The translations under genes were made by a program, and so were the position numbers. Shown here one piece after another: positions 12,674 to 63,681 of a stretch of DNA of 64,000 nt. A model generated the notes under the pieces. It saw nothing but the letters and a program-made list of their open reading frames with translations, was not told where the DNA came from and did no database searches. The stretch is from Strongyloides papillosus (lineage: Eukaryota; Nematoda; Chromadorea; Rhabditida; Strongyloididae). Position 1 is the stretch's first letter. Each line of letters begins with the position of its first letter. The DNA lies in the NCBI GenBank assembly GCA_005656395.1, contig SRSI01000013.1, positions 1,736,001-1,800,000 on the forward strand. The letters are read 5' to 3'.

Positions 12674-15585
12674 TTATATGTTTTTTTTATACTTCCTTAT
12701 GAAATCTTCACTATTCTCACATATAACATCGAAGATAAATTTTATATCACGATGAGTCATTTGCGGATTGTTGATTGATATTCTCATGAAATGAATATTA
12801 TTAACATGAGATTCAGTTATATGAATTCTTCTATCAATATTATTAATGATGTTAAATATTTTTTCATTATCATCGTTGGAACAATTTTTTATTTTAAAAC
12901 AAACTAATCCGGCTATTTGTTTTGTTACCACTTCGAGATAATCTTTTGATAAAAAAAGTCTTTCTAAAAACTGAGCACATTGTATTTGTTGTCTTTGCAT
13001 TTGTCTTATCTTCTCAAACCCAAATGTTTTTTGCAAAAACCATATCTTAATACTCCTGTTGATACGTGATTTTGTTCCTAAAGTATTTAAGTCCTTTAAA
13101 GATGCATATTTATTGGATATAAATAACATTGAAGCATCATGATTTATACCACTGCTTTTATGTAAATTAACAACAAATGAATCAACATAATTAAAACCTT
13201 TTAAAAGATACTGATATTCTGGTAATAAAATAAAACCACCAAGATACGCTGAGTCACAGTGTACCCATAATCCTTCTTTTTTTGCTATTGGACCAAAAAT
13301 TTCAGGTGAATCAACGCCACAAGTTGATGTGCTACCAATAGGTAGTGTTACGAAAAAGGGAATCATTCCATGGTGACGATCAATAGTTAATGCTTTCTCA
13401 ATAGCTCCTAAAGGCATTGTAAAATTTGCCAAATTTTTGTCATAATATATAGGGAACTTTCTTATACGTATGTTTGCGAATAAGTATGCTTTTTCAACAG
13501 AAGAGTGTGCCTGTTCTGATGTATACGCAATTAAATAGTTATATAAAAAAATACAATTGTCATCATTAATTGTATCCCACTTATCTAGATACTTCAACAA
13601 GTCCCTTTCTAAGTTATCTAATGTCTCCTCATTAATTAAATTATTTTCCTTCATTTTATATAAATCTTTAAATTTTTTTATAACATACTCTCTTGCCATG
13701 AGTACACTTTTAAGTGTTCCTTCACTTGCACTACCATAAAACCACCTCCTATAATCAATTTTTTCTTTTTTCCAAAATTTTTCATCTAAATTCATTTCTC
13801 TTCCAATATATTGAATTGTTTCATATTCCATATTTAATAATTCATCATTGGTACGATATCCGAAAGCTGAAGCAAAAAGATCTCCTAGGACACATAAATA
13901 ATTTGTATGACATGGAAAGTATGCTAAAAAATTTTTGTGAAGCCAATGTGTTGTGTGCTGTAGTAATGATTCATATATGGGAATTAAAGACTCCAAACTT
14001 CTTCCATATTTCGGTGGTTTAGATGTTAAAATATTAAAAATAGTTCTTGGGGAAGAATCTGAATTAGGGAGAAAATTTTTGTTTAAATTTTCCCAATACC
14101 TAATAATAAATTCAAACGCCGCTGTTGACGATTTTTTAAATTCATTAATGTCTAATACATTTATCAATTGAATTGGTGGATTCTGAAAAAGTGAAAGAAG
14201 GATAATGTAAAAAACGTTACTTTTATTATTACCTTTTCATATTTGTATTTGTAATAACTTTTTAAACCTTCAATACCAAAAGTTGATATAATCATCCATA
14301 ATCGTATTCCACGGGGTCTTTTACTAAAGCCAAAACTAATATGTCTAAGATCAGCAATCATTCCTTGATTAGAATGTCTTAAATAAGTTGGTGTTATTGA
14401 TAAATTTTCTTCTGCTTCCTTATAATTTTTCAACCATAATACTGTACATGGTTCATTAGTAAGGAATACATTTCTAATGTCACTTGTCAAAGAGTCTACT
14501 TCCCTTAGGAGTATATTTAACTTTATATACCTATTTAATAATAATTCCCCTATTATGTTAGATAGATTAATGGTTATCCAAAGAAAATAATTTTTGCAAA
14601 TGGAAATTATTTCTTTTAAAATGTCAATTGAATTATTAATATTTCTGTCAATTGAAATTATACAAATAAATGGTTGCAAGGAATTTTTTTTATCTACTTC
14701 AATAGTTTTTAATAACATTTCTGGCATCATTTTATTTGTATTACCAAGGACTTCTAAAGTTACGCCAGAATTTTTTAATATCCTTGGCAAGTTGAATTTT
14801 GCTTGACCAATTAAGTAACCTTTTAAAATTTTATTATATTTTGGATCGTGTTTTGAAAAGTATGAATAACATTCGGAGAACGGATCATATGAAGGTTTAC
14901 CTGTAGTCACATCATTTTCATATTCAAATATTTTTTTTTTCTTATCAGCAAAATTATTTGATAGGTTGCGAATTTTTCTGCTTTTTGCACACACAATTGA
15001 TAAAACAAAGCACTCCTCAAGAGTGTAATGGAAAGCTCCATTACCTTGATTGAATTGATTTAAAAAACACTTGGGAATATTTAATGAATCACCTATCCAA
15101 TCACACATTAATAGTTCTGTTTCCGTAACTAATGGAGACGCATTCCACGTAAAACCTGGTGATCCAATTGCTGTCATAAGAATTTCAGCAACAATACTAG
15201 GATATGATAATTCTTCCTTTGCATTAAAATATAGCATATTAATTTTATCAGATTTGTTCTGCAAGTACATTTGTTTAATATAATTTTGAAGAAAGCTAAT
15301 AAAATTATTTTGATTTTTATAACAGATAAATTTCCCATAACAATATTCAGCCATTCGATTGATGTTTTTTTGATATGGTAGATTAGGATAATATTTGATA
15401 ATATTTTCATTTGGTTTAAGGACACTTTGAACAAAATATTCTAACTCTTTATCACAAAATGTTTTTTGTGATATATCAACATTACTAGTAGTTTGATGAT
15501 AATTTTGTTGATCAAGAGTAGATAAATACCAACATATCGCATCAATAAATTTTGGATAAGATTGCCTCAAAGCGTCTGTATCCAT
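12674..15585 (-). CDS. Two-domain group II (AADC-like) PLP decarboxylase: degenerate N half, PLP-binding C half
   Basis: Two exons, 15585-14233 and 14182-12674, join in phase 0 across a 50-bp intron (14183-14232, GTAATA..TTTCAG) to give 953 residues. What looks like a second start at 14167 is an internal TTG codon. The family is aromatic-L-amino-acid/histidine decarboxylase, which makes amine transmitters and works as a homodimer with the active site at the interface. C half (about 452-953): has the THWLHKNFLAYFP motif, GSASEG (601-606), QAHSS with the His that stacks on PLP (677), HCDSAY with the PLP Asp (761) and LHK with the PLP Lys (793). It lacks about 22 residues where the mobile catalytic loop should be, and its GFxWxxSP loop is replaced by GYRTNDE. 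N half (1-451): Asn372, Asn340 and Lys263 replace Lys, Asp and His. It keeps GFTWNASP (144-151) and the catalytic loop ITPTYLRHSNQ with Tyr401, and it lacks the C-terminal small domain. The substrate cannot be told. A neuronal or glandular amine role is inferred from the family. Confidence 0.85.
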
Positions 15586-61193: not shown

Positions 61194-62261
61194 TTACAAT
61201 TCTGTTTTTGCGTTCTTTTTGTTCTTTTTATCGTTATTTTTTGTTTTTCCTTCATCATCGGATTTTTTATCTTTTTTACTGTCTTTTTCTTTCTTCTCAG
61301 ACTTATTTGATTTTTTCTCATCTTTCTTTTTATTATCTTTATTTTTTTGTTTTTTTGCCTCTTCAGCTGCCTTTTTGGCGGCTTTAGCTTTTGCAGCATG
61401 TGGGCATCCCTCAATGTCATCTTCTTTTTTTGGTTTTGTAGTAGATTTTTTCTTTTCTGTTTCTTTTTTCTTATCCGATTCTTTTGCTTTTTTAGAATCA
61501 TTTTTCTTGTCAGAATTTTTTTTCTTATCAGAATCTTTTTTCTTATCAGAATCCTTTTTCTTCTCTCCATCTTTTTTTTTCTCACCATCCTTTTTCTTTT
61601 CTCCATTCTTTTTCTTCTCTGTATCCTTTTTCTTTTCTGATTCATTCTTTTTATTGGACTTTTCTTTCTCTTCAACTGTATTTTTCTTCTCCTCTTCCTT
61701 TTGTAAATCTTTTTTATCCTCCCTCTTTATTTTCTTGCTTTCTTCTTCACCATTAAAAACTTTTAATGCTCTTTTCATTCCTTTAAGAACGGAATTAATT
61801 CTTGGATAATAATAATGATTATGTGGATAATCTTTTTTATTATCAACAGCTAATGGTTTACCATCAATTGACAAGAAGAGAATTCTTGGTATATACATAC
61901 CATCTGGTCCATACATCTCGTCCTGTGGTTCTTCATCATCTTCTAAATTAACCATAACAAAGTTTTTAGATGCTTCAATTATTTTTTCTTGTTCTGGATC
62001 ATCGAAGAAACTTTTTTTAAGAAGTTTACATGCATTACACCATGTTTTATGGATCATTAAAAAGATAGGTTTATTAAGATCTTTTGCAACTTTTGTTGCC
62101 TTATCCCATTCAATCCAATCGATTTCCTTAGGAAAACCGTGTGAGAGATCCTTTTTCTTTTCCACTTTATCATGTTCCTTTTTTTTCTCATCCTTCTTGG
62201 TGGATATCAACGTAAGGGTAACAATGAAAAGTAAGAATAATAATTTATTAAAAATATTCAT
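61194..62261 (-). CDS. TXNDC12/ERp18-type ER thioredoxin with a long Lys-rich tail and a KTEL end
   Basis: A single exon of 355 residues from the ATG at 62261. A signal peptide (about 1-20, KLLFLLFIVTLTLIS) and a short Lys/Glu linker lead to a thioredoxin fold at about 45-170. Its IHKTWCNACK holds the redox pair Cys75-Cys78. FVMVNLEDDEEPQDEMYGPD and YIPRILFL (cis-Pro125) are hallmark TXNDC12 blocks. TXNDC12 relatives normally stop soon after; here about 180 residues of Lys/Glu/Asp/Asn repeat follow, including perfect and near-perfect KKKDGE/KKKDSD hexads. The protein ends NAKTEL, matching the KTEL ER-retrieval signal known from AGR2. It should therefore be a luminal ER oxidoreductase or chaperone. 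Most long frames on the other strand (for example 61186-61809) are the Phe/Ser-rich shadow of this repeat. Confidence 0.85.
   Translation of the reverse strand: MNIFNKLLFLLFIVTLTLISTKKDEKKKEHDKVEKKKDLSHGFPKEIDWIEWDKATKVAKDLNKPIFLMIHKTWCNACKLLKKSFFDDPEQEKIIEASKNFVMVNLEDDEEPQDEMYGPDGMYIPRILFLSIDGKPLAVDNKKDYPHNHYYYPRINSVLKGMKRALKVFNGEEESKKIKREDKKDLQKEEEKKNTVEEKEKSNKKNESEKKKDTEKKKNGEKKKDGEKKKDGEKKKDSDKKKDSDKKKNSDKKNDSKKAKESDKKKETEKKKSTTKPKKEDDIEGCPHAAKAKAAKKAAEEAKKQKNKDNKKKDEKKSNKSEKKEKDSKKDKKSDDEGKTKNNDKKNKKNAKTEL
61493..61616 (-). repeat. 18-bp tandem repeat within the thioredoxin tail
   Basis: About seven copies of an 18-bp unit encode KKKDGE, KKKDSD or KKKNSD hexads. Copies drift in the third codon base and at D/N and G/S positions, so the array is old enough to have diverged at the DNA level while keeping the charge pattern. 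Confidence 0.85.
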
Positions 62262-63681
62262 TATCTAAAGGGATAAAAAAATTAATTAGATATAAAAGAA
62301 ATGAATAAAAATAATAATTGTTAATGCAAGTTATTTATATAAAAATTTATATTAATTGATCACATACTTGTAATAAATAAATTTAATAAACAACTATAGT
62401 AGGTCAGGGTTGTATGAATAAGATGTATCATTAAAAAAGAAAAAAATTTATAATACAATTACTATATATCAAAAAGATGTATCTAATCATATTGATGAAA
62501 GGAAAATTATATACTAAATAATTTTATAATTGAATGGATAAAATTTATCATTAATTGAACTACTTTTAATACAAATGTTAAATACTAGATTTATACAAAG
62601 ATCTTTGGTTATTTACAAGATAATCTATAAGAGATACAATTTTTAAATAAAAAAAATTATTTCACTATAAAATTTACTATATATCCAAAAATCAAATTAA
62701 AATATCAGAAAATATTAAAGTAGTATAGAAATTTCTTTCCCCTCAATATATTAGAAAAAAAATCCTTCTCTTTTTCTTATATCACCTCTATTCATATAAC
62801 ACTAAAAATAAAGTAATAAGTCTTTGTCTTTTAACAATTGTGTTTTATTAAAAATTAAATTAAGAACCAATCTTAATAGTGGTTGATAATTTATATCAAT
62901 CTTAGTATATAAATTTTCGATATATTTAAAGTTTTATAAAGATAAAATTAATATATGCTTTTTAAAATATAATAATTATAATTTCTAAAAATCCATTTAT
63001 TTTTATGATAACTTTAAAAATTTCTAACACTATCAATCATATCTATGATTTTCTTTAGACAAATATTATTAAAAAATAACATATATATCTCAAATATTTC
63101 TTTTCCCACTATTTTTATTGATATAAAAAAATAATTACTTAATTTTTATTTTTTAAAGGCAGATGAAATATTAAAATTCATTTCACAGAAATAATTTAAA
63201 AGAAATGATTATACAAATGTAAAAAGTAAAAATATATAATAAGGTTCATAAAAATTAATTTGTTTTGTTATAAATTTTGAGTAATTATATTATATGGGTT
63301 TTCATTACCCGTTTTTGTGCGAATAATAACAAATTATTTGTCTTCTAGTATTTTTTTTATCTAGACTGATTCATATAGGAGCACTTTTTTGAAAAATTAA
63401 GTATAAATATATAATAGATAAATAAATTATGGATTGAAAGATGATTGTTATTATACTACAGACATATTTATCTTGTTTTTGTTTATTTAAGTGGTAATGT
63501 TACTAACTGTCATACTGAATGGTATTAGTCAACTTTTTAAGATTTTGTCTACCTCTCAATTGATACGTCAATATTTTTATACATTATTGTTAAAGAGCAA
63601 TATTTTTTATGTTGTTAAATTCTATTTGATGATATCTTTAAAACATTTCTTTTTTCTTCTACTATACGTTCTTACTACATC
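62262..63681. other. Intergenic tract
   Basis: AT-rich region upstream of the thioredoxin gene and 3' of the partial gene at the right edge. An 82-codon plus-strand frame at 63491-63739 overlaps that gene and is not supported. Confidence 0.4.

Follow-up and report, generated by a model that had tools for sequence, protein, structure and literature searches.

Glycine decarboxylase P-protein, an enzyme of fold type I, has a single pyridoxal 5'-phosphate (PLP) site per pair of half-proteins, located in the C half. These half-proteins are separate in Thermus (1WYT A/B) and form one chain in eukaryotes, as in human GLDC (6I33). Human aromatic L-amino acid decarboxylase (AADC) is described as an obligate dimer with two sites that are connected and share residues, in which Tyr332' of the neighbouring subunit forms a relay near the substrate carbon with His192 and Ser193, Arg347' and Leu353' also act in trans, and Thr331' docks on His439 (PMC10382914). 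We describe a gene on the minus strand of a 64,000-nucleotide stretch of the nematode Strongyloides papillosus (contig SRSI01000013.1, positions 1,736,001 to 1,800,000; hereafter the window) with two AADC-like halves, N and C, joined across a short intron. Judged from its sequence, this gene most likely encodes a single-chain pseudodimeric AADC, in which both subunits of the ancestral dimer would now be one chain.

The PLP lysine, the aspartate and the stacking histidine are found in the C half only (Lys793, Asp761 and His677), with Asn, Asn and Lys in their places in the N half, and sequence for loop2 and for the mobile catalytic loop with the Tyr332 equivalent is found in the N half only. 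The N half also lacks loop1 (Tyr79, Phe80, Pro81 and Thr82) and the phosphate-site pair Ala148/Ser149. An earlier note on this DNA had called Lys263, Asn340, Asn372, Tyr401, His677, Asp761 and Lys793 correctly, and the trans role that it gave to the loops agrees with papers confirming that the partner subunit contributes Tyr332, Arg347, Leu353, Ile101 and Phe103 (PMC10382914, PMC12443470, PMC3734303). Its account of the C-half losses, about 22 residues at the catalytic loop together with the GFxWxxSP motif, needs only minor correction: 21 residues are missing at the catalytic loop (human Leu333-Leu353), and loop2 has lost 5 more, just before the Phe of GFxW.

We measured these losses against human AADC on a MAFFT alignment that included both halves of the window gene and of a paralog from the same genome, together with two canonical proteins of that genome, one tdc-like and one bas-like. 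The literature provided 18 cis positions, in loop1, at the PLP contacts and at His439 as docking point, and 14 trans positions, in loop2, the catalytic loop and loop3, with Trp71 and Glu34 left out of the count (PMC10382914, PMC9121088, PMC12443470, PMC8003434, PMC3734303). The window N half keeps 0 human identities in cis and 9 in trans, and its C half 15 and 2; the paralog keeps 2 and 9 in its N half and 14 and 2 in its C half, and the canonical controls keep 13 and 11 (tdc-like) and 16 and 12 (bas-like). Loop1 residues other than Thr82 serve their own subunit's site. For Thr82 the same is implied in the papers behind the position list. When the seven loop1 positions 69-81 are set aside, 10 of the remaining 11 cis identities are kept in either C half, 2 in the paralog N half and 0 in the window N half. 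Both C halves retain the full set of 10 PLP-site and docking positions counted between Ala148 and His439. Alternative MAFFT modes shift the kept counts by 2 at most.

A list-free check used the 158 positions that are invariant in the human, tdc-like and bas-like proteins, split into blocks by human numbering. Around loop2 (85-145) the window N half keeps 19 of 24 and the C half 4 (paralog 17 and 5), and from 311 through loop3 to 357 the counts are 10 and 2 of 18 (paralog 10 and 3). The C half retains 9 of 14 in block 1-84, where the N half has 0 (paralog N 2, C 9), 39 of 61 in the PLP pocket (146-310) beside 18 for the N half (paralog N 19, C 39), and 11 of 29 in the C-terminal domain (380-476), which is absent from the N half (0; paralog N 0, C 13); in block 358-379 the halves keep 5 (N) and 6 (C) of 12 (paralog 6 and 7). 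What the N half has lost (loop1, PLP pocket and C-terminal domain) belongs to the site that would use N-half PLP, and this is also the site which the two loops missing from the C half would serve.

A new finding is that the layout, the position and phase of the intron and the kind of losses all recur in the paralog. When the window's own genome (58.2 Mb) was searched with each half, its locus was the one other place, among 15 and 13 candidates scored, with both halves matching at full or nearly full length. Its intron, of 44 nucleotides and phase 0, lies after a Lys and before an Asn, as in the window gene. The two genes are 44% identical in their N halves and 59% in their C halves. Between the two N halves, identity is complete at the 14 trans positions, against 3 of 14 for the cis positions that could be compared and 158 of 338 elsewhere. 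The difference between trans and other positions has p=3e-5, a value that is too small because positions inside one loop are not independent, and shifted placements of the trans set reached 14 in 1 of 365 cases. In their C halves the two genes agree at 17 of the 18 cis positions and at 247 of 423 others, and 0 of 446 shifts reached 17. Other alignment modes move the N-half cis count between 2/14 and 5/17 and leave the trans count constant at 14/14.

A decaying N half would let its trans loops drift like its pocket, but the loops are held, so that the N half appears to be kept for its contribution to the C half; this fits selection on the trans role of the N half. The conservation of the trans set, absent from the argument of the earlier note, is the best evidence for such a contribution. 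The one composite active site per chain that the note had inferred gains support from the 32 cis and trans positions, the two paralogs, the canonical controls and the shift control, and we consider it highly probable that such a site would be made of N-half loops and C-half pocket.

A protein that is catalytically dead throughout and retained for binding or regulation is a very unlikely alternative. Although PLP binding by the N half has been lost outright, the N halves are less alike than the C halves, and C. elegans retains AADC-like genes whose products were judged unlikely to be functional enzymes (PMC514703), the C halves keep their PLP-site and docking positions in full, and the trans set that the N halves share, including Tyr332 and Arg347, is one that a dead protein need not keep.

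The paralogs are distant, with nonsynonymous and synonymous divergence (dN/dS) of 0.49/2.41 for the N halves and 0.34/1.34 for the C halves, and fourfold sites differ at 38 of 60 positions in the N halves (41.8 expected at saturation) and at 42 of 80 in the C halves (50.5 expected). Synonymous sites are near saturation, which makes the duplication old, and the argument therefore leans on site-specific conservation. In a tree with glutamate decarboxylase (GAD) as outgroup, the N halves group together with 100% support, as do the C halves. Approximately unbiased tests (p-AU) neither supported nor rejected N and C halves as sisters (0.46), C halves with canonical AADCs (0.46) or N halves with the bas-like protein (0.24), so that a fusion of tandem copies of one gene and a fusion of two different AADCs are both compatible with the data.

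The join itself checks out in coordinates and translation, as the earlier note had it: an in-frame passage through a 50-bp intron into 953 residues (Table 1). Each half matches Pfam PF00282 (Pyridoxal_deC), with 118.8 bits for the N half and 159.1 for the C half against a cut-off of 27, and this is the sole Pfam match of the protein; solved AADCs are the best structural-database matches (best E 8e-34 for the N half and 4e-53 for the C half). In NCBIfam no model rose above its cut-off for the four halves of both genes, and the paralog N half had no match to any model. Both exon frames have 0 internal stops, where base-shuffled frames average 40 and 45; such stop-free frames are more than chance would give, and the pattern recurs in the old paralog. 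The window has about 24% G+C (20-28% across 8-kb steps), a composition that, together with many long single-exon frames, would be Strongyloides-like. As the open reading frames are read, the first Met of the N half stands directly after an in-frame stop.

That the C half is an ordinary homodimer with the N half as mere scaffold, or that the locus holds two separate genes, is hardly credible. Nematodes do have tandem decarboxylase duplicates, such as bas-1 and C05D2.3 (PMC514703), and exon 1 read unspliced gives a 473-residue frame that stops at 14164, just beyond the intron. However, a homodimer needs the catalytic loop and loop2, of which the C half has lost the former and most of the latter, and the intron keeps its place and phase in the paralog. 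Moreover, the first Met of the C half is its residue 118 (130 in the paralog), beyond the loop1 pocket in both genes, so that a separate start could not give a complete C-half domain in either of them.

In the alignment, Tyr401, Thr400 and Arg414 (the R of ADLRH) fall in the N half, and His677, the Ser that follows it, Lys793 and the His439 equivalent in the C half, and for this reason we propose the N half as a built-in partner subunit. The C half would bind PLP through Lys793, Asp761, His677, the phosphate site, loop1 and the C-terminal domain. The N half would fold on it as the partner subunit, supplying loop2 (PGFTWNASP) and the catalytic loop, with Tyr401 reaching the Lys793 site and acting like Tyr332' of human AADC. 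The mirror site, N-half PLP pocket with C-half loops, would be dead from both sides, leaving in one chain the parts of one active site, which could be expected to decarboxylate an aromatic-type amino acid.

The halves might also pair between chains, in a domain-swapped dimer with two composite sites instead of a one-site monomer. Conservation shows only that loops and pocket belong together, not that they do so in one chain, and human AADC is functionally an obligate homodimer (PMC10382914). On the alignment, though, the N-half core ends about 16 residues before the C-half core begins, and halves tethered in this way should meet in cis first. We regard pairing between chains as somewhat doubtful, and lean, with modest confidence, towards the N-half loops and C-half pocket of a composite site lying in the same molecule.

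The composite site could also carry out a chemistry other than decarboxylation, such as an oxidative deamination or a lyase reaction. Pocket changes common to both paralogs point in that direction (in the C halves Cys for Thr82, in the N halves Pro for Ile101 and Phe for Leu353), but the Tyr332 and His192 equivalents are both retained, and we consider this unlikely. Aldehyde synthases are marked by replacement of these residues. Histidine was considered as a substrate from the N-half Ser at human Gly354; the tdc-like protein has the same Ser, which is thus no pointer.

Several findings weigh against the single-chain pseudodimer, beside the dependence among loop positions mentioned above. The two paralogs amount to one evolutionary sample. 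At five of the 14 trans positions both N halves depart from human AADC, with Pro for Ile101, Leu for Ala110, Thr for Asp329, Asn for His337 and Phe for Leu353. The docking residue of His337', Glu34, has likewise changed in both C halves, so that the site does not simply copy that of the human enzyme. The site loss is less complete in the paralog N half, which retains Asp at 271 and Asn at 300, and the alignment of the N halves is poor over their first 84 positions. AlphaFold models of the halves, each built on an alignment consisting of the other half only, reached mean predicted local distance difference test (pLDDT) scores of 33.7 and 34.3 and are unusable.

Table 1. Position of the window gene, of its active-site features and of its paralog (window coordinates unless a contig is named; residues of the predicted protein).
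Feature	Position	Strand	Remarks
Whole gene	15585-12674	minus	Two open frames and a 50-nt intron; predicted 953 aa and stop
Exon 1, N half (residues 1-451)	14233..15585	minus	AADC-like; PLP site, loop1 and C-terminal small domain missing
Intron, 50 nt	14183..14232	minus	Phase 0, GT-AG, GTAATA...TTTTTCAG
Exon 2, C half (residues 452-953 and stop)	12674..14182	minus	PLP site and C-terminal domain; most of loop2 and catalytic loop gone
Loop2 motif SPGFTWNASP (142-151), N half	15133..15162	minus	Trans part retained; from alignment
Catalytic loop and loop3 PTYLRHSNQGMIADLRH (399-415), N half	14341..14391	minus	Tyr401 = human Tyr332; from alignment
Lys263, N half	14797..14799	minus	Replaces PLP-stacking His192
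Asn340, N half	14566..14568	minus	Replaces Asp271
Asn372, N half	14470..14472	minus	Replaces PLP lysine 303
Loop1 substrate pocket TTHWLHKNFLAYFPC (528-542), C half	13910..13954	minus	Cis part largely retained
FASAFGYRT (554-562), C half	13850..13876	minus	5-residue loop2 loss sits after FASA
His677, C half	13505..13507	minus	Human His192
Asp761, C half	13253..13255	minus	Human Asp271
Lys793, C half	13157..13159	minus	Human Lys303; predicted PLP Schiff-base lysine
LGTKSRINRS (819-828), C half	13052..13081	minus	21-residue catalytic-loop loss sits after LGTK
TESHVNN (907-913), C half	12797..12817	minus	His matches human His439, docking point for partner's catalytic loop (PMC10382914)
Paralog (L009), same two-half layout	contig C42 (G000:C42) 5092-2154	minus	457 and 508 residues; 44-nt intron

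Other PF00282 genes of the genome, named by resemblance, include tdc-1-like, bas-1-like and GAD-like ones and more. One locus (L010, G000:C23, 2262-4355, plus strand) holds a single-exon Pyridoxal_deC frame of 698 residues with, by eye, a hydrophobic stretch like a membrane anchor ahead of the domain and a Lys near the PLP position. Another (L016, G000:C2, 2343-3175, minus strand) holds GAD-like frames whose match to the family is confined to its later part, a third and perhaps incomplete copy beside two further GAD frames of 493 (C7) and 490 (C1) residues. The Rfam search for the spliced leader SL1 gave no match; three SL1-like 22-mers were found with 2-3 mismatches, against 2 matches for a reversed control pattern, and since that control also matches they are weak evidence. 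Two of them lie on the minus strand of G000:C21, at 541300-541321 (2 mismatches) and 537736-537757 (3 mismatches), and the former is followed by a GTAAAT donor and a AATTTTGG stretch, by eye a possible Sm site. Elsewhere in the window (61194-62264, minus strand), a 356-residue frame has a thioredoxin-like start (WCNACK, by eye) and then a long lysine-rich repeat tail (KKKDGEKKKDGEKKKD).

A literature search beyond whose reach most subscription journals lay found no tandem or pseudodimeric AADC. It is conceivable, at a little under an even chance, that the two genes represent an old family with broken AADC two-fold symmetry, in which each chain would be a complete, asymmetric, one-site monomeric decarboxylase and the two members would make amines other than the known ones. 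A one-site monomer would offer a natural experiment on the role of the second site and on site-to-site coupling in AADC, and, with glycine decarboxylase as the first, would be an independent second instance in which a PLP homodimer became an enzyme of one chain and one site. Part-by-part complementary loss of one site shows which parts serve which site without mutagenesis, and an asymmetric enzyme would be on offer in which each half can be altered alone. The locus also adds a clear example of how duplication and fusion may let a symmetric enzyme lose half its sites, and the organism may have an amine-making branch of at least two genes beside its tdc-like and bas-like enzymes.

These tdc-1-like (L014) and bas-1-like (L015) proteins are canonical, with most cis and trans residues present, but have one domain each; their sequence identity is 22-26% with the N halves and 27-32% with the C halves. 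A long AADC-like protein of C. elegans is ZK829.2, which we take to be hdl-1. By its published description it has 830 residues with one AADC core and long extensions that do not resemble PLP decarboxylases, and it is 39% identical to human DDC (PMC514703), whereas here both halves are Pyridoxal_deC and the window C half is 29% identical to human DDC. The published identity of ZK829.2 to C. elegans tdc-1 is 44% (PMC514703); the window C half has 27.5% identity to the tdc-like protein of its own genome. In a further paper, an hdl-1 reporter gave no expression in the animal, and notable hdl-1 transcripts are cited only in sperm (PMC11488851). Like the N half, the divergent AADC-like C09G9.4 of C. 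elegans appears to be without the PLP lysine, but it is about one domain long, with 507 codons compared (PMC514703).

The P-protein resembles this gene in having two homologous halves per chain, one of them without the PLP lysine. An 827-residue stretch of the GLDC of the same genome matches 6i33_A over its whole length, while its residues 1-244 match 1wyt_A and its residues 355-745 match 1wyt_B. The P-protein is a precedent and not a member of the same family, since it belongs to GDC-P rather than Pyridoxal_deC and catalyses another reaction, and its fusion was presumably independent. With human AADC (DDC; PDB 8OR9, 8ORA) the gene shares PF00282, and the residues known from that enzyme are found here as PLP residues in the C half and as trans loop2 and catalytic loop in the N half. 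Unlike that homodimer with its two equal sites, however, the gene has the roles split between unlike halves of one predicted chain, in which one site would have been lost.
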